Shown here piece by piece: positions 48,199 to 56,497 of a stretch of 64,000 nt of DNA. The position numbers and the translations under genes are program-made. Under the pieces are notes generated by a model. The model did not search any database, was not told where the DNA came from, and saw only the letters and a list, made by a program, of their open reading frames with translations. Origin of the DNA: Marinihelvus fidelis (GTDB lineage Bacteria > Pseudomonadota > Gammaproteobacteria > Xanthomonadales > SZUA-36); assembly GCF_008725655.1 (NCBI RefSeq), contig NZ_VYXP01000002.1, positions 62,001 to 126,000 of the forward strand, written 5' to 3'. The stretch's first letter is position 1, and each line of letters starts with the position of its first letter.

Positions 48199-48717
48199 TT
48201 ACTGCCGTTTCGGGCTGATCAGCATCACCATCTGCCGACCTTCCATGCGTGGGAACTGCTCCACGTTCACTTCTTCTTCCATCTCGTCGCGGACGCGCTT
48301 GAGCACGGCCATGCCGAGATCCTGGTGGGCCATTTCCCGGCCACGGAATCGCAGCGTCACTTTCACCTTGTCGCCATCCTCGATGAAGCGCCGCACGTTG
48401 CGCATCTTCACCTGGTAGTCGGCTTCCTCGGTACCGGGCCGGAACTTCACTTCCTTGACCTGGGTGACCTTCTGTTTTTTCTTGGCCGCCTGCTGCTTCT
48501 TCGCCTGTTCAAACTTGAACTTGCCGTAATCCATCACCTTGCAGACGGGTGGTTCGGCGTTCGGCGAGATCTCCACGAGATCCATGCCGGCTTCTTCGGC
48601 GAGCGCGATGGCGTCCCTGACCTTCATGATCCCGGCCTGTTCTCCATCGGCGCCGATGACCCTGACTTCCGGCGCGATGATGTCCCCGTTGCGCCGCGAT
48701 TCTTTTCCAGTTGCGAT
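48199..48717 (-). CDS. infC: Translation initiation factor IF-3 (ATC start)
   Basis: The 172-residue product matches IF-3: N-terminal [34 protein letters not shown], linker lysines, and the C-terminal domain ending [17 protein letters not shown]. The start is ATC at 48717, giving M-A-T-G-K-E-S-R-R after an AGGAGA ribosome binding site. IF-3 genes commonly start with ATT or ATC because IF-3 itself rejects such codons, which autoregulates translation. An ATG 30 codons in, at 48627, would remove conserved sequence. It follows thrS by 24 bases. Confidence 0.95.
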
Positions 48718-48741: not shown

Positions 48742-50649
48742 TCAGCGTCGCGATTCGACGTCCGCCTCGAGGCGGTCGGCGAAGGCGGAGACCGGCATTG
48801 TGCCCAGGTCTTCACCGTCTCGCGTACGCACGGCAACGGCCCCGTTTTCGACCTCCCGGTCACCAATGACCAGAAGGTACGGGACACGCGCTAAAGTGTG
48901 CTGGCGGATTTTATAGCCGATCTTCTCGTTTCTCAAGTCCAAATCGACGCGGAAGCCCCTGTTTTCAAGGGTTTCGGCCACTTTCTCGCAAAAATCGTCC
49001 TGGCGGTCGGTAATATTCAGCACCGCGACCTGTTTTGGTGCCAGCCAGGCCGGGAATTTACCGGCATGATTTTCGATCAGGATGCCGATAAACCGCTCCA
49101 GCGAACCGAGGATCGCGCGGTGCAGCACCACCGGGGTCTGCTTGGAGGAATCCTCGGCGATGTAATGGGCACCCAGGCGCTCCGGCATCATGAAATCCAG
49201 CTGCAGGGTACCGCACTGCCAGACACGGCCGATGGTGTCTTTCAGCGAGAAGTCGATCTTGGGGCCGTAGAAGGCGCCGTCACCCGGGTTCAGCTTCCAC
49301 TCCATGCCGGATTTTTCCAGCGTGGACTGCAACGCGGCCTCGGCCTTGTCCCACAGCGCGTCGTCGCCGATGCGGTTTTCCGGGCGGGTGGACAGTTCCA
49401 CCTGCACCTCTTCGAAGCCGAAGTCCTTGTAGACGCTGAACAACAGGTCGATAAACGCCTGTGCCTCGGACTGCACCTGGTCCGGCGTGCAGAAGATATG
49501 CGCGTCGTCCTGGGTGAAGCCGCGCACGCGCATCAGGCCGTGCAATGCGCCCGAAGCCTCGTTTCGATGGCAGGAGCCGAACTCGGCCATGCGGATGGGC
49601 AGGTCGCGGTAGCTGTGCAGGCCGTGGTTGTAGATCTGCACGTGGCACGGGCAGTTCATCGGCTTGACCGCGTAATGACGGCTCTCGCTCTCGGTGGTGA
49701 ACATGTTCTCCGAGTACTTGGCCGCGTGCCCGGATTTCTCCCACAGGCTGATGTCGACCACCTGCGGGGTGTTGACCTCGCCGTAACCGGCGTCACGCAG
49801 GCGTTCACGCATGTAATCCTGGATGGCCGTATAAATGGTCCAGCCGTTGGCGTGCCAGAACACCATGCCCGGCGCCTCTTCCTGGAAGTGGAACAGGTCC
49901 TGCTGTTTGCCCAGGCGGCGGTGGTCGCGCTTCTCGGCCTCTTCCAGGCGGTGCAGGTAGTCGGCCAGGTCCTTCTTGCTGGCCCAGGCGGTGCCGTAGA
50001 TGCGCTGCAGCATCTCGTTCTTGCTGTCGCCGCGCCAGTAGGCGCCGGCCAGCTTGGTCAGCTTGAAATGGCCCAGGTGGCCGGTGTTGGGCACGTGCGG
50101 GCCACGGCACAGGTCCATGAACTCGCCCTGGCGATACAGCGAGAGTTCTTCGTCACCGGGAATGCCCTCGATGATCTTCGCCTTGTACTCCTCGCCGTCC
50201 TGGCGGAAGTGCTGGATGGCCGGGCCGCGTTCCATGACCGAACGCTCCACCGGGATCGCGTCCTTGGCCAGGCGGCGCATTTCCGTGGCAATGTGGTCCA
50301 GGTCCTCGGGCGTGAAGCCGGGCTCGTAGGCAAAGTCATAGTAGAAACCGTCATCGATCACCGGGCCGATGGTGACCTGGGCTTCCGGGAACAGCCGCTT
50401 GACCGCCTGCGCCAGCAGGTGGGCCGTGGAGTGACGGATGATGTCCAGCCCCTCGGCGTCGCGCGCGGTGATAATGCGCAGGCTGGCGTCGCCGTCGACC
50501 GTGAAAGCGGCGTCGACCAGCTTGCCATCCACCTCGCCGGCCAGGGTCGCCTTGGCCAGGCCCGGGCCGATATCGGCTGCCACGTCCATGACGCTGACGG
50601 GGTGGTCGAATTTGCGCTCGCTGCCATCCGGCAGGGTAATCACTGGCAT
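48742..50649 (-). CDS. thrS: Threonyl-tRNA synthetase
   Basis: The 635-residue product has an N-terminal TGS domain, an alanyl-like editing domain ([18 protein letters not shown], near residue 73), the class II core with zinc-binding [12 protein letters not shown], and a C-terminal anticodon domain. It charges and edits tRNA-Thr. It is the first large gene of thrS-infC-rpmI-rplT and is preceded by the leader peptide and attenuator described separately. Confidence 0.97.
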
Positions 50650-50694
50650 GGTCGGTTCCGTTCCGCTTTGCTCGGTTTCAGGTTGGCCACAACG

Positions 50695-50744
50695 AAAAAA
50701 GGACGCACAAGGCGCCCCGGGGAAGTCGCGAAGGAGCGCTTCCC
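50695..50744 (-). terminator. Attenuator upstream of thrS: hairpin, terminator and alternative pairing
   Basis: Reading the minus strand, hairpin A pairs GGGAAG (50744-50739) with CTTCCC (50725-50720). Next comes a terminator: GGGCGC (50717-50712) with GCGTCC (50706-50701, one G-U) and six T (50700-50695). GCGCTCC (50739-50733, inside hairpin A) can instead pair over seven positions with GGGGCGC (50718-50712, one G-U), destroying the terminator. The leader peptide stop lies two bases before hairpin A. This is the classical arrangement for amino-acid-responsive transcription attenuation. Confidence 0.8.
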
Positions 50745-50745
50745 T

Positions 50746-50778
50746 TTACCCGGTAAAAGTTCGCGTGGCGATGATCAT
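50746..50778 (-). CDS. thrS leader peptide (three Thr codons in ten)
   Basis: The ORF encodes M-I-I-A-T-R-T-F-T-G and ends with TAA at 50748-50746. Thr codons are ACG, ACT and ACC at positions 5, 7 and 9. A ribosome stalled at the last Thr codon would uncover the antiterminator strand; one resting at the stop would cover it, letting the terminator form. No Shine-Dalgarno is obvious; a TAAAAT hexamer (50790-50785) ends six bases before the ATG, so the transcript could begin near the start codon. Confidence 0.75.
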   Translation of the reverse strand: MIIATRTFTG

Positions 50779-50835
50779 GCCGCTATTTTAACCGCATTCG
50801 GGCATGATTAGTAGGTCACCGGAATCGCGTACCCC

Positions 50836-51906
50836 ATGCCCCGACATCCCGCACCACAGCCGCCTGCCCAGTCCATGGCCATGCACGAGTTCATGCTGCG
50901 CCAGGCCTGCCCACCCCCACCGTTGCCGGCGGAACTCGCCGGCCATTCGCCCTGGACGGCGGGCGCGGCGTTTTTCTGCCTGGACACGGCGACCGGTGAA
51001 CTGGCCCAGGACAGCCGGGTATCGTCGCTGTCGTCGCGTGATGCGCACCCGTTTGAGGGCGGCAAACCGCACCGCAGCCGCAAGTTTCTTCAGCGCCTGC
51101 CGGACGGGGTGGAGGGCGTGATCGCGGCCGACTTTTCAGACGCTCGCCGGTACGACGCAGACGACCACTTCGGCCGACGCTTCAACGTGTTCCAGTACAA
51201 CCGTTGGGCGGGCTCTGAATCGGCCGTGCTGTGGCGGCTGCCGGGTTATTTCTGTCCCAACGCCAGGATGGGCTGCGCCGGCCCGGACGGCGTATCCGAC
51301 ACGATCGCATTCACTGACAAGCGGCCCACGGTGTACTGGCGAGGAAATGACAGCGGCTACCACTGGACCGCACCGGGCCGGGGCACCACCTTGCGCAACC
51401 CGGGGCCGGGCGCCGATGAAGCCCAGCTGGACGAGCGATTTTCCCGCTTCCGCGCGGTCAGGATGTCACGGCAAGATCCAGGACGATTCGATTTCCGTTT
51501 CGCCTCGCCCTGGGGCCGGCCGCCGTCCAATCCGCTGACGGCCCCCTGGTTCACCAGGGCCGAGCCGCGCGAGGCCGCGCTCGCCCATCGCTACATCCTC
51601 TGTCCCAATGGCAACGACGTCTGCTCGCAGCTGTACTGGATACTTAACACGAATTCGGTGGCTTTCAGGGAAGACTGCGATTACGAAGTGGTGCCCGACT
51701 ATTTCCTCGCGCCATGGGTGCACTACGTGCCTATTTCCCGTGGGCTGGACGACCTGGCCGACAAGCTGGACTACTGCGAGTCCAACCCGGGGCTGTGCCT
51801 GCGCATCATCGAGAACGCCCGCCAGGCTTACGCGCAGATGACCCGCCCCAGGCCCTGGCGCGAGGCCGAACTGACCGTGTTGTCGCGCATGGGACTGCTG
51901 CGCTGA
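50836..51906 (+). CDS. Glycosyltransferase family 90 (CAP10-like) candidate
   Basis: The 356-residue product shows the CAP10/GT90 pattern: ESAVLWRLPGYF, FTDKRPTVYWRGND in the centre, then HRYILCPNGNDVCSQLYWIL, NSVAF and LAPWVHYVPISRGLDDLADK near the C-terminus. These enzymes add sugars to capsule, lipopolysaccharide or protein. It has no signal peptide or membrane segment, so it is cytoplasmic. ATG 50836 is used; in-frame ATGs occur 13, 15 and 19 codons later. It diverges from thrS and its upstream region overlaps the thrS promoter region. Confidence 0.7.
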   Translation: MPRHPAPQPPAQSMAMHEFMLRQACPPPPLPAELAGHSPWTAGAAFFCLDTATGELAQDSRVSSLSSRDAHPFEGGKPHRSRKFLQRLPDGVEGVIAADFSDARRYDADDHFGRRFNVFQYNRWAGSESAVLWRLPGYFCPNARMGCAGPDGVSDTIAFTDKRPTVYWRGNDSGYHWTAPGRGTTLRNPGPGADEAQLDERFSRFRAVRMSRQDPGRFDFRFASPWGRPPSNPLTAPWFTRAEPREAALAHRYILCPNGNDVCSQLYWILNTNSVAFREDCDYEVVPDYFLAPWVHYVPISRGLDDLADKLDYCESNPGLCLRIIENARQAYAQMTRPRPWREAELTVLSRMGLLR

Positions 51907-51933
51907 CCTGGTGAGACCAGCCAGTTAGCGCCG

Positions 51934-53382
51934 TTAGCCCTGCTTGAGCATGAAGCGCCGGATCAGCCGGTGCATGCGGCGTCCATACGGCGGCATGATA
52001 AATGACGCGGCGTTGAAGCGACCCTTGCGATAGACCCCCTTGGCCTTGGAGAAGGTCCGGAAACCTTCGGGGCCGTGGTAGGCGCCCATGCCGGAGTCCC
52101 CTACCCCGCCGAACGGCAGGTCGTCGACGCCGACATGCGAGATGGTGTCATTCAGGCACACGCCGCCGGCATGGGTTTCACGCAACACCTTCTCGCCGTT
52201 GGCGCGGTTCCAGTCGAAGTAATACAGCGCCAGCGGCCGCGGCCGCGCGTTGACGTGGGCGATGGCCTGTTCCAGGTCGTCATACGGCAATACCAGCAGC
52301 CAGGGCCCAAAGATTTCCTCGCGCGCGATGATCATGTCGTCGCTGGCATCGAGCACCAGCGCGTGCGGCAGTTTCTGGCTGGCGCTGAAGTCCTCGCCGG
52401 CCGGGTTCACCTCGATGACCCGCGCACCCTTCTCGCGCGCATCGTCGAGCCAGGCCAGCAGGCGCTCACGCTGGCGCGGGTTAATGATGGCGGTGTAGTC
52501 CGGGTTGTCGACCATGGTGGGATAGGCCTTGGCCACCTGGTCCTGCCAGGCGCTGACGAACGCATCCACCTGCGCCGAGGGGCATAGCACGTAATCCGGC
52601 GCCACGCAGGTCTGTCCGGCGTTCATGCACTTGCCGAAGGCGATGCGCTCCACCGCGGTGTCGATCGGGAAATCGGGCGCGATGATGCACGGGCTCTTGC
52701 CGCCCAGTTCCAGCGTGACCGGCACCAGGTGCTCGGCTGCCGCGCGCATGATATGGCGGCCCACATCGGTTGAGCCGGTGAACAGCAGGTGGTCGAACGG
52801 CAGCGCCGAGAATGCCTGCGCCACATCAACCTCGCCGTTAAACACGGCGACCTGGTCTTCGGGGAATACCTCCGCCACCAGCCGCTGCAACAGCGCGCCG
52901 GTTGCCGGGGCCGCTTCGCTCATCTTGATCATCACGCGGTTGCCGGCGGCCAGCGCGGCCACCAGCGGCGCCACCGCCAGTTGCACCGGGTAGTTCCAGG
53001 GCACGATGATGCCCACCACACCCAGCGGCTGGTATTCCACCCAGGCCCGGCCGGGCCAGCTGAGTGCGCTGACGCCGCGGCGGCTGGGCTTCATCCAGCG
53101 CCGCAGCCGGCGCCGGTAGTACTTGATGCCCTCCAGCGTGACAAGGATCTCCGCCAGCCGGGTCTCGTCGGCGGCACGGTTGCTGAAGTCGCTGTTAACT
53201 GCCTCAACCCACTCGTCCTGGTGCTCCAGCAACAACGTGTGAACGCGGTCCAAAGCCTGCCTGCGAGCGGCGATATCCGGGTAAGGCTGCCGCTGGAACG
53301 CGGCTTTCTGTGCCTGGAAAACCCGTTCGAGCCGGTCAATCTCACCGCTCGCCGCCACTGATTCGCTCATCTCTGCCGCCAT
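51934..53382 (-). CDS. Aldehyde dehydrogenase (coniferyl-aldehyde dehydrogenase-like)
   Basis: The 482-residue product has the NAD-dependent aldehyde dehydrogenase motifs: IVPWNYPVQL, FTGSTDVGRHI, ELGGKSPC with Glu225 and GQTCVAPDYVL with the catalytic Cys259. The N-terminal half and the short C-terminal extension with MPPYGRR resemble coniferyl-aldehyde dehydrogenases, a group that also takes other aromatic or long-chain aldehydes. It diverges from the AraC gene, so it is a likely regulon member. ATG 53382 is used; ATG 53370 is possible. Confidence 0.88.
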   Translation of the reverse strand: MAAEMSESVAASGEIDRLERVFQAQKAAFQRQPYPDIAARRQALDRVHTLLLEHQDEWVEAVNSDFSNRAADETRLAEILVTLEGIKYYRRRLRRWMKPSRRGVSALSWPGRAWVEYQPLGVVGIIVPWNYPVQLAVAPLVAALAAGNRVMIKMSEAAPATGALLQRLVAEVFPEDQVAVFNGEVDVAQAFSALPFDHLLFTGSTDVGRHIMRAAAEHLVPVTLELGGKSPCIIAPDFPIDTAVERIAFGKCMNAGQTCVAPDYVLCPSAQVDAFVSAWQDQVAKAYPTMVDNPDYTAIINPRQRERLLAWLDDAREKGARVIEVNPAGEDFSASQKLPHALVLDASDDMIIAREEIFGPWLLVLPYDDLEQAIAHVNARPRPLALYYFDWNRANGEKVLRETHAGGVCLNDTISHVGVDDLPFGGVGDSGMGAYHGPEGFRTFSKAKGVYRKGRFNAASFIMPPYGRRMHRLIRRFMLKQG

Positions 53383-53457
53383 ACCTGGTCGCCACCGCTG
53401 GTTGTTGTTGTCGCCGCCATGATAATCGCAAGCCGAGGCCACCGGAACTGCAATACA

Positions 53458-54549
53458 ATGGCGCCCCATGACCCGAGCCCGGCACAACCCGTCTTGACCC
53501 CGTTAACCCTGCTGGCTATCGGCGCCGGGTTCTCCCAGGTCCTGCTGTCGGGCGCCTTGTTGCTCTCGCTGGGCCTGGAGTCACGCTCGGGACGGCTGTT
53601 TGCCCTGCTGCTGCTGGGCGCGATTGGCTACCTGCTGACGCCGTTGGTCAATGACGGCCAGGGGCACCCGGTGATGCAGGCGCTGGCCACGTCGCTGCCG
53701 GGCGTGTTCTGGCTGTTCTGCGCGTCGCTGTTCGACGACCACTACACGCTGCCGGCCTGGCAACCGGCCCTGGTGATCTATTCGGTGGTCGCCCCCCTGG
53801 CCTGGCACCTCCTTGGACAACCGGCAGGCGGTCCGCTGGAATGGCTGTTGCAGGACCTGCCGCAGTTGCTGGAGTTCGTGTTCATGCTGCTGGCCCTGCG
53901 CGCCACCTTCCGCTACTGGCGCGGCGACCTGGTGGAGGTGCGGCGCAAACTCAGGGTCTGGTTCTGCGCCGGCACGGGCGTATTCATGTTCTCTTTGATC
54001 CTGTCACGCGAAGTGCTGTTTGCCGGCGCGGACTGGTTGCAGGGGGCCCAGTACATCGCCACCGCCGTGGTCCTGCTGGGTATCAACATCATGCTGCTGC
54101 GTTACCCGACGCGCATCTTTGATCCGGCACGACGCGAGCCCGAAGCCACACCACCCCCGGCCAACGCCAGCAAACCGGTCGAAGACGACCCGGTCGAGGC
54201 GCTCGCACCCATTCGCCGGCTGATCATGGACCAAGGCATTTACCGCGAACACGGCATGACTATCGGCCGGCTGGCGAGCGCGGCGGAGATGCCAGAGTAC
54301 CGCCTGCGCCAACTGATCAACAGCGGCCTGGGCTACCGCAACTTCAATGATTTCCTCAACCGCTTCCGTATCGAAGAAGCCTCGGCGCGCCTGGCCGACC
54401 CCCACCAGTCACACCTGCCGGTGCTGACCATCGCGCTGGACGTGGGCTTTCGCTCCATTTCGTCGTTCAACAAGTGTTTCAAGGACCAGCACGGCGTCAC
54501 GCCCACGACCTACCGGAAAAACCACCTGAAACCACTCGAAGACGACTAA
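53458..54549 (+). CDS. Membrane-anchored AraC-family transcriptional regulator
   Basis: The 363-residue product has about seven hydrophobic segments in residues 10-225 (among them LTLLAIGAGFSQVLLSGALL and LFALLLLGAIGYLL) and a C-terminal AraC DNA-binding domain (about 255-355) with two helix-turn-helix motifs (TIGRLASAAEMPEYRLRQLI and FRSISSFNKCFKDQHG). The membrane part probably senses a hydrophobic or membrane-borne signal. It lies between the divergent aldehyde dehydrogenase and the cytochrome genes, with an inverted motif 3 bases after its stop that recurs before the TonB receptor. ATG 53458 is used; an upstream ATG at 53419 is possible. Confidence 0.85.
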   Translation: MAPHDPSPAQPVLTPLTLLAIGAGFSQVLLSGALLLSLGLESRSGRLFALLLLGAIGYLLTPLVNDGQGHPVMQALATSLPGVFWLFCASLFDDHYTLPAWQPALVIYSVVAPLAWHLLGQPAGGPLEWLLQDLPQLLEFVFMLLALRATFRYWRGDLVEVRRKLRVWFCAGTGVFMFSLILSREVLFAGADWLQGAQYIATAVVLLGINIMLLRYPTRIFDPARREPEATPPPANASKPVEDDPVEALAPIRRLIMDQGIYREHGMTIGRLASAAEMPEYRLRQLINSGLGYRNFNDFLNRFRIEEASARLADPHQSHLPVLTIALDVGFRSISSFNKCFKDQHGVTPTTYRKNHLKPLEDD

Positions 54550-54551
54550 TT

Positions 54552-54576
54552 CTTGCGGATTTTCAATTTCCGTAAG
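54552..54576. promoter_or_regulatory. Inverted motif CTTGCGGA / TCCGTAAG, candidate regulator site
   Basis: CTTGCGGA (54552-54559) and TCCGTAAG (54569-54576) match as inverted arms at seven of eight positions with nine bases between. It lies about 75 bases before the cytochrome lipoprotein start. A longer perfect version of the same motif stands before the TonB receptor at 57891-57935. Confidence 0.5.
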
Positions 54577-54649
54577 CCAGCCGGCATCGCCCGCGCCACA
54601 ATCCGTGGCCATGATCATCAACAGAACTGCGCGACCCGGGGGTCGACCC

Positions 54650-55312
54650 ATGAAGCCATTCCCACCTGTCCGCCAGGCCGCCATGCTGGCTGGCCTGGCG
54701 ATACTCGCCCTGGCGGGCTGCAAGCCGGCCGCGGAGCCGGATGCCGCCGCCGTGGCCGCCGCCAGCGGTGCCTACAAGACCTGCGCCGGCTGCCACGGCG
54801 CCGAGGGCGAAGGCAACGCGGCGCTGAAAGCGCCCGCGCTGGTCAACCTGGACGGCGACTACATGGCCCGACAATTGCGCCACTTCCGTGACGGCAAGCG
54901 CGGCGCCAACCCCGCCGACACCCAGGGTGCGATCATGGCCGCCAGTGCCGCTGCGCTGAATGACGCCGCCATCGGGGCCATCGTCTCCCAGGTGGCGGGT
55001 TTTCCCGACATATTGCCGGCGCCCACCTTCGAGGCCGATATCGCCAACGGCCGCGACTACTACAACATGGTCTGCGGTGCCTGCCATGGCCCTGACGCGG
55101 TGGGTAACGAGGCGCTGGGCGCGCCGTCGCTGCGCGGCATAGACGATGCCTACCTGGCACGCCAGTACGAACTGTTTCGCGACGGCCTGCGCGGCGACCA
55201 CCCGGATGACGAGCCCGGCCAGCAAATGCGCCGCATGGGCCAGGTGCTGAAGGACGAGGACGCCATCCGCAACGTGTCCGCCTACCTGCTGTCGCTGGGC
55301 CTGCCGGACTGA
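54650..55312 (+). CDS. Dihaem cytochrome c lipoprotein
   Basis: The 220-residue product has a lipobox (LALAGC, Cys24) and two class I cytochrome c domains with haem sites Cys45-AGCH and Cys142-GACH. Distal Met candidates occur in each half (Met96 and the QQMRRM segment). As an outer-membrane lipoprotein facing the periplasm it could pass electrons to or from the following dihaem peroxidase-like protein. It is followed by that gene after three bases, so the two are co-transcribed. Confidence 0.9.
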   Translation: MKPFPPVRQAAMLAGLAILALAGCKPAAEPDAAAVAAASGAYKTCAGCHGAEGEGNAALKAPALVNLDGDYMARQLRHFRDGKRGANPADTQGAIMAASAAALNDAAIGAIVSQVAGFPDILPAPTFEADIANGRDYYNMVCGACHGPDAVGNEALGAPSLRGIDDAYLARQYELFRDGLRGDHPDDEPGQQMRRMGQVLKDEDAIRNVSAYLLSLGLPD

Positions 55313-55315
55313 ACC

Positions 55316-56497
55316 ATGCGCGCCCTGCTCATGCTCACCGCCTGCGTGCTGTCCTGCGCAGCGGCAGCCAGTGACACGGCACCGATCCGGCTGAGCGACA
55401 CCTGCCCGGCAGGGTTCGCGCCCGATGACGATAACCGTTGTCGCCTGGTCAGCCTTTACCGGCAGTACCCATCGCTACAGGACCGCGGCATGGGCGGCCT
55501 GAAGATCGGCCTGCCGCGGGTGCTGGACGGCTTCAGCCCGGAAGAAATCGACCTGGGCCGACTGCTGTTCTTCGATCCGCTGCTGTCGGCCAACCGCGAC
55601 ATGTCCTGCGCCAGCTGCCACCAGCCCGACAAGGGCTTCGCCGACGGCCGCGACCGCAGCCTGGGCGCCAGCGGCGAGCCCCTGCCCCGCTCCGCGCCCA
55701 GCCTGTGGAATGTCGGCTTCCAGAAGCAGTTCTTCTGGGACGGCCGCGCCGACAGCCTGGAAACGCAGATGCTCGAGCCGCTTTACGCGGCAAACGAAAT
55801 GGGCAATACCCCGGAACAGTTGCTCGCCGACCTGCGCGGCAATGCCGAATACACCCGGCTGTTCCGCCAGGCCTTTCCAGGCGATGACGCTGAACCGGTG
55901 ACGCTGGCGCGCGTCTACCGCGCCATCACCGCCTTCGAAAGCACGCTGGTGTCGCTGAACTCACGCTACGACCTGTACGCGCACGGCGTGCACGAGGCCC
56001 TGACCCCGCGGGAAATCGAGGGCCTGAACATCTTCCGCTCGTTCGTGGCCCGCTGCGCCGAGTGCCACACGCCGCCGCTGTTTACCAATGAGCAGATTGC
56101 CGTGATCGGCACGCCAGAGCCGGACGGACGGCCACTGGACCCGGGCCGCGAGGCGGTGACCGGCGAGGCCAGCCAGCGCGGCGGCTTCAAGGTGCCTGGC
56201 CTGCGCAACATCAGTAAGACCGCACCCTATATGCATTCGGGGCGCTTCGACGAGTTGTCGGACGCCATCGCCTTCTACACCGGTGGCCGCGGCCACGCCG
56301 TGCCCGAAGGCGAAAACCTGTACCTGCACTGGCACATCTGGGAACCCGGCCTGCGCGACGAGGAAATCGCGCGGCTGGTGGACTTCCTGGGTGCGCTGGA
56401 CGATGAATCCTACCTGCCTCGCGAACCCCAACGGCTGCCTTCGGGTCTGCCGCTGGTGCATCGCGACGTGGCCCCCTTCGAGGAGATCGCACCATGA
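55316..56497 (+). CDS. Dihaem cytochrome c peroxidase / MauG family protein
   Basis: The 393-residue product has a signal peptide (about 1-19) and the bacterial CCP/MauG fold with two haem sites, Cys98-ASCH and Cys247-AECH. Sequences around them (MSCASCHQPDKGFADGR, GGFKVPGLRNISKTAPYMH) fit the family. Members either remove hydrogen peroxide or oxidise specific proteins or substrates through high-valent haem. The context favours an oxidation linked to the preceding cytochrome, not general peroxide defence. It overlaps the next gene by four bases. Confidence 0.9.
   Translation: MRALLMLTACVLSCAAAASDTAPIRLSDTCPAGFAPDDDNRCRLVSLYRQYPSLQDRGMGGLKIGLPRVLDGFSPEEIDLGRLLFFDPLLSANRDMSCASCHQPDKGFADGRDRSLGASGEPLPRSAPSLWNVGFQKQFFWDGRADSLETQMLEPLYAANEMGNTPEQLLADLRGNAEYTRLFRQAFPGDDAEPVTLARVYRAITAFESTLVSLNSRYDLYAHGVHEALTPREIEGLNIFRSFVARCAECHTPPLFTNEQIAVIGTPEPDGRPLDPGREAVTGEASQRGGFKVPGLRNISKTAPYMHSGRFDELSDAIAFYTGGRGHAVPEGENLYLHWHIWEPGLRDEEIARLVDFLGALDDESYLPREPQRLPSGLPLVHRDVAPFEEIAP

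Follow-up and report, generated by a model that had tools for sequence, protein, structure and literature searches.

What controls thrS, the gene for threonyl-tRNA synthetase (ThrRS), in Marinihelvus fidelis? The window, i.e. the whole stretch of 64,000 nucleotides analyzed here, carries this gene on the minus strand (48742..50649, start ATG at 50649), with the Pfam domains TGS, tRNA_SAD, tRNA-synt_2b and HGTP_anticodon. In Escherichia coli, thrS is the textbook example of translational autorepression by tRNA mimicry, in which ThrRS binds the operator. T-boxes of Firmicutes thrS respond to the charging of tRNA and work through a terminator. A preliminary description of the window had proposed that a threonine attenuator controls the gene, and this proposal is supported by a Thr leader in the relatives, by compensatory change in the antiterminator and by the geometry of a folding model. 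Very likely, thrS is under the control of a ribosome-mediated transcription attenuator whose signal is charged tRNA-Thr. The leader ORF, the terminator, the Thr specificity, the antiterminator covariation, the dependence on ribosome position (in the folding model) and the promoter spacing were computed.

The proposed mechanism is as follows. RNA polymerase would start at the leader ATG or right beside it, and a ribosome would translate the short Thr peptide. With Thr-tRNA plentiful, the ribosome would reach the stop codon and cover the antiterminator strand, which begins some 10-17 nt beyond it; the terminator would then form before thrS. With Thr-tRNA scarce, the ribosome would wait on a Thr codon and leave the antiterminator strand free; this strand would then pair with the terminator 5' arm and loop, and the polymerase would read into thrS. 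In the window, the weak antiterminator would have to act kinetically. From the computed features we infer the transcription start, the translation of the ORF, the stalling and the response to threonine.

Structure of the leader

The leader ORF is located at 50746..50778 on the minus strand, its stop codon 97 bases from the thrS start. It encodes MIIATRTFTG and is probably leaderless. The ten codons that had been described, with three Thr codons (ACG, ACT, ACC), are present at 50778-50746: ATG ATC ATC GCC ACG CGA ACT TTT ACC GGG, followed by TAA. The six-pair hairpin that had been placed two bases after the stop codon is also present (GGGAAG/CTTCCC, 50720..50744, minus strand, arms 50744-50739 and 50725-50720), but begins one base past the stop codon. 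It encloses the antiterminator strand GCGCTCC (segment 2; 50733..50739, minus strand). The terminator 5' arm GGGGCGC (segment 3; 50712..50718, minus strand) can take as its partner either segment 2 or the terminator 3' arm, GCGTCCT (50706-50700), which together with the T run (50700-50695) occupies 50695..50706 of the minus strand. The hairpin GGGGCGC-CTTGT-GCGTCCT extends over 50718-50700 of the minus strand, and the first of the six T can also pair. Thus both further elements of the preliminary description were recovered: the intrinsic terminator with six T (50718-50695) and the mutually exclusive seven-pair alternative GCGCTCC/GGGGCGC (50739-50733 with 50718-50712).

As a whole, the leader of the window folds no better than its own shuffles (z 0.26); a single sequence therefore proves little, and the evidence above chance comes from the relatives.

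Distribution of the Thr leader

The order was sampled with 146 thrS upstream regions from 144 of the 204 genomes handled. Two regions were left out, L069 (G055; no N-terminal match) and L179 (G143), and three that lacked the N-terminal match (L037, L047, L057) were replaced by the refetched L219, L239 and L238. A fixed filter was applied: an ATG or GTG ORF of 5-14 codons, with 14-48 nt between its stop codon and a terminator-like hairpin downstream. A leader ORF containing two or more Thr codons and followed by a terminator was found upstream of thrS in 95 of the 146 regions and in 11 of the 12 families, and the expectation that relatives keep a Thr-rich leader ORF was thus borne out. Counts by family were 25/31 in f1, the family of the window, 11/13 in f2, 3/3 in f3, 7/8 in f4, 4/4 in f5, 0/1 in f6, 1/1 in f7, 7/24 in f8, 3/26 in f9, 1/1 in f10, 6/6 in f11 and 27/28 in f12; most regions of f8 and f9 were without a leader. 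The stop codons of the 95 leaders are TGA (62), TAA (22) and TAG (11), and the distance from stop codon to terminator is 24-35 nt for 5-95% of them. The terminator lies 18 to over 100 nt upstream of thrS, and a T run was required by the filter.

The residue is specific. When the filter was run for each amino acid on the same 146 regions, at least two codons were found for Thr in 95, Arg in 37, Ser in 12, Ala in 9 and every other residue in at most 6; with at least three codons, the counts were 50 for Thr, 4 for Arg and 3 for Ala. The second place of Arg is largely due to the Arg-Thr pattern (TRT). Thr is kept across the 11 families, and the remainder of the peptide varies.

One region of the order (L009) has lost the leader upstream of thrS; its -10 box is directly followed by a long and almost perfect palindrome, as if the repeat had replaced the attenuator. 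Genome G016 has three thrS copies (L031, L018, L063) on three contigs with differing upstream regions, and is probably a mixed MAG.

Outside the order, the Thr leader was found in none of 108 regions (0/79 named; 0/29 class-level, nearest by ThrRS sequence), a set in which MAGs without a label could also be order members, and from which L104 was moved out, being order genome G158. The sequence-only model R1, run on 274 genomes of the class, gave a single match in the genome of the window, at the thrS leader, and long matches also at thrS of the order members G039 and G050. At E<=0.01, 48 of the 274 genomes had a match, in many cases confined to the terminator part. In five genomes outside the order (G388, G235, G360, G248, G349) the matches span much of the model with E values of 5e-4 to 5e-3; those in G388, G360 and G349 lie on a contig different from that of thrS.

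Several families have a tRNA gene upstream of the leader (9 of 20 loci scanned), which would allow the terminator to belong to the upstream gene and the ORF to be incidental. This explanation is extremely improbable in view of the Thr bias, of the promoter that f1 has at the leader itself, and of the divergent neighbor in the window. The latter gene (50836-51906, plus strand, weak glycosyltransferase-90 match) starts 57 bp from the leader ATG, and because of this orientation the terminator of the window is not that of the upstream neighbor.

Comparison with the operator, T-box and Rfam

In the 70 nt directly upstream of thrS we searched for hairpins whose loop of seven bases is centered on a Thr anticodon. 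Such an operator was detected in 44 of the 108 regions outside the order (28/79 named, CGT or GGT; 16/29 class-level). Within the order the filter accepted 7 of 146 regions (5/95 with leader, 2/51 without), and in four of these seven the hit is the terminator hairpin itself. The E. coli control was positive; looser settings were used for it, but its seven pairs and its position also meet the strict ones. No E. coli-type thrS operator was found in the leader of the window. That thrS is controlled by such an operator, with ThrRS binding a mimic of the tRNA-Thr anticodon beside the ribosome binding site, is hardly credible here, although the same script recovers E. coli and the 44 outside regions: only seven order regions were accepted, most of these by way of the terminator, and the window was not among them. 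To judge from the sequences, the operator appears to be essentially missing where the Thr leader occurs, and the two exclude each other in the sample. This exclusion is most simply read as a replacement that took place at the base of the order or close to it, together with losses in f8 and f9.

A search of 49500-56000 of the window gave no T-box or other Rfam match at E<=1. At the gathering threshold, Rfam listed only two tRNAs in the whole window and no family that fits the thrS leader.

Covariation of the antiterminator

Pairing of the spacer with its own terminator arm plus loop was compared with pairing after swaps within families. The mean over 94 distinct leaders was -15.23 kcal/mol, versus -14.03 (sd 0.20) for swapped partners, and 0 of 5000 swaps were as good, in a permutation scheme that models relatedness incompletely. 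By family, the swaps as good (of 5000) numbered 1 in f1, 14 in f2, 5 in f8 and 1891 in f12, so that f12 alone gives the antiterminator covariation no support. Covariation was also seen for the terminator arms, with 0 of 5000 swaps equaling the own pairing. A control pairing of leader ORF with terminator was at chance (1984 of 5000). The first duplex test, which used only the 5' arm plus loop against dinucleotide shuffles, was weak (mean z -0.56); the antiterminator signal emerged after a four-base extension and swapping between genomes.

Among 19 f1 leaders, picked by the analyst from the 25 by omitting L001 (the window), L002, L006, L022, L025 and L026, the consensus fold is the antiterminator helix, with compensatory changes at 3 of 7 pairs, 97.0% of cells paired and a covariation of 0.412, versus at most 0.122 when slid. 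When all 25 rows are taken without selection, the terminator comes out as the consensus fold. Of the 25 rows, 18 form the complete set of seven antiterminator pairs in that register, and the window keeps only 3. In most of the family of the window, the covarying strand starts +10 to +17 from the stop codon. For the terminator register, 94.7% of cells are paired. A mutually exclusive antiterminator is thus found for the set; it is weak in the window and L002, and unseen in f12 alone. The compensatory changes that had been expected in the stems were recovered for the antiterminator and terminator arms; a general post-stop hairpin found no support.

Very close leader ORFs can raise the translation of the next gene through reinitiation, according to excerpts of PMC4833913, and a switch acting on translation or reinitiation into thrS rather than on transcription might be considered. 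It is very unlikely, as each of the 95 leaders has, as the filter demands, a T-run terminator between ORF and thrS, and its arms covary.

Ribosome position and folding

The folding model masked the RNA up to 15 nt beyond the first base of the A-site codon and was evaluated at equilibrium for 94 leaders. The mean terminator probability was 0.49 for a ribosome on Thr codons, 0.84 for one on the stop codon and 0.54 with no ribosome. The gap between stop and Thr positions (0.348, versus 0.064 in 40 shuffled-spacer sets, sd 0.021, maximum 0.120) was above 0.1 in 51 of the 94 leaders and below -0.1 in three. An earlier set of 50 leaders gave a like outcome with masks of 11 to 17 nt. In the model, then, the position of the ribosome decides the fold. 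The value of 0.54 without a ribosome, against 0.84 at the stop codon, suggests that termination depends on a ribosome translating the leader to its end.

A pause or protector hairpin occurs in textbook attenuators but does not define the class. A general hairpin of this kind (1:2), making termination the default, is not supported: pairing of leader ORF with spacer was no better than swapped (4773 of 5000 as good). The sister sequence L002 carries a look-alike of the post-stop hairpin of the window.

For the window itself, two states were compared in RNA without the terminator 3' arm. When the third Thr codon occupies the A site, the seven-pair helix comes out as the best fold (-11.4 kcal/mol) and the terminator 5' arm is paired upstream with a probability of 1.00; when the stop codon occupies it, the RNA forms a weak fold at best (-5.2 kcal/mol). 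The antiterminator helix is freed by the third Thr codon only, as the second frees none of it and the first only a part. Once complete, the terminator wins at equilibrium in every ribosome state (0.96-0.97 in the window; 0.96-0.99 in the window and L002), and the antiterminator of the window is poorer than those of the relatives. The switch, if working, would therefore be kinetic, or else the antiterminator has been degraded or altered in the window and L002. The geometry first proposed, in which a ribosome waiting at a Thr codon leaves the antiterminator strand free and one at the stop codon covers it, holds in the model for the set of leaders, but in the window only before the terminator 3' arm is made and only for the third Thr codon.

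This behavior of the window and L002 would also fit a terminator and short ORF that act as a constitutive filter or yield a short RNA, with Thr codons that are no sensor. Such a filter is nevertheless very unlikely, given that Thr is retained in 11 families whose peptides otherwise change and that the antiterminator covaries.

Predicted promoter and start of the leader

The predicted thrS promoter of the window has a -10 box TAAAAT (50785..50790, minus strand), which ends 6 nt upstream of the leader ATG. Boxes were accepted with at least 5/6 matches to TATAAT, as the best match within 60 nt of the leader start. The best match ends 6-8 nt upstream of the leader start in 25/25 leaders of f1, 7/7 of f8 and 1/4 of f5; by chance, a box at 5-8 nt would be expected at a rate of 1.2% per position. 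Four of the f1 leaders (L002, L007, L020, L026) count as leaderless only if translation begins at an in-frame codon further upstream than the start of the shortest ORF. No such -10 box was found in f2, f3, f4, f9, f10, f11 and f12; f7 has one at 28 nt. The -35 region is poor, with 2/6 matches in the window. Transcription starts about 6-7 nt past the -10 box, with a mean of 6.3 in Streptomyces lividans, according to excerpts of PMC8079986. At a spacing of 6-8 nt the RNA would begin at the leader start codon. In the family of the window the leader is probably leaderless, with transcription predicted to start at the ATG or no more than about a base away.

The f1 leaders have an unusual codon usage. 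The rare codon ACT accounts for 26/70 Thr codons, versus 49/331 in the thrS genes of the family (Fisher p 6e-5), and CGA for 26/34 Arg codons, versus 35/586 (p 2e-22), the p values being inflated by the relatedness of the sequences. CGA-ACT makes up 23 of 29 Arg-Thr pairs, and in leaders L001-L026 this dicodon is strongly conserved, beyond the need of the peptide; it may serve slow decoding or RNA structure. By eye, the conserved CGAAC was seen to have a possible partner, GTTCG, past the T run in some leaders.

Downstream genes

Downstream of thrS follow infC, rpmI, rplT, pheS and pheT (Pfam). The infC gene (IF3; 48199..48717, minus strand) has a probable AUC start at 48717, 24 nt past the thrS stop. 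An AUC start shortly after thrS was found in the 21 readable of the 30 loci L001-L030 (the window and 20 others). On the minus strand of the window, the scan listed no terminator-like site in the gap from thrS to infC. A promoter-like site, TTGAGA-17-TAAAAT, is located in the 3' end of thrS (48936-48908, minus strand) and may add infC transcripts; the scan gave two such sites versus 1.4 expected by chance. The suggested coupling of Thr supply to infC is thus plausible from the 24-nt gap and the lack of a listed terminator, but the internal promoter-like site could uncouple the two.

E. coli pheM is the attenuator leader of pheS. In the rplT-pheS gap of the window (47485-47355, minus strand), a strong terminator-like hairpin with seven T lies upstream of pheS. 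By analogy it may be a pheS attenuator like pheM; no Phe-rich ORF was seen there.

A further reading is that the leader is a two-input switch of Thr-tRNA and initiation state (IF3, 70S), which would link the synthetase to the supply of IF3, and that the order swapped the tRNA-mimic operator for it. At the locus this reading builds on infC being the second gene of the thrS operon, with an AUC start. Translation of a leaderless leader would depend on 70S initiation, and raised IF3 has been reported to inhibit 70S initiation, according to excerpts of PMC9031893. Since an untranslated leader does not favor termination in the model, the leader would read the initiation state as well. The two-input reading is speculative and on balance rather improbable.

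Comparison with known systems

In the classical attenuators of enteric bacteria (trpL, thrL, hisL, pheM) the position of the ribosome is the sensor. The leader described here shares with them this proposed sensor, a short ORF rich in one residue, a terminator and a mutually exclusive antiterminator. It differs in its target, thrS, in being probably leaderless in f1 and f8, in having no supported conserved ORF pause hairpin, and in a model that does not favor termination when the ribosome is absent.

Ribosome-mediated attenuation as such is already known, and in the literature searched a leader peptide of thrS had been proposed only in S. lividans. No report of a proteobacterial thrS leader peptide was found in open PMC papers; Lopatovskaya et al. 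2010 may contain one. New are the spacing between -10 box and leader start in the family of the window and the operator that is essentially missing in the order. The whole order seems to have traded tRNA-mimic autorepression for a peptide attenuator, a swap of sensing on one gene that can be tested. The probable leaderless start would make this a natural case of attenuation without a Shine-Dalgarno site, and the position upstream of infC raises a testable link to IF3. Annotators could recognize a very short gene that is missed in genomes of the order.

The proposed thrL of S. lividans TK24, leaderless by RNA-seq in excerpts of PMC8079986, is likewise a Thr-containing leader ORF before thrS, with the leaderless start predicted in our case. 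As described in the same excerpts it differs in its 18 codons with two Thr, in that no U-rich terminator was found, and in being known from a single species of an unrelated phylum. Leaderless leader peptides also appear in excerpts on Sinorhizobium meliloti trpL (PMC7298713), Corynebacterium diphtheriae ilvB (PMC5784534) and the mycobacterial Cys leaders (PMC9031893). Their RNAs begin with the start codon, as predicted here, and they differ in serving other amino acids in other phyla or another class. Like the T-box leaders of Firmicutes thrS (excerpts of PMC2965389), the attenuator would sense tRNA charging and have a terminator as its target, whereas a T-box binds the tRNA directly. With the E. 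coli thrS operator it shares the controlled gene, whereas that operator binds ThrRS and acts on translation.
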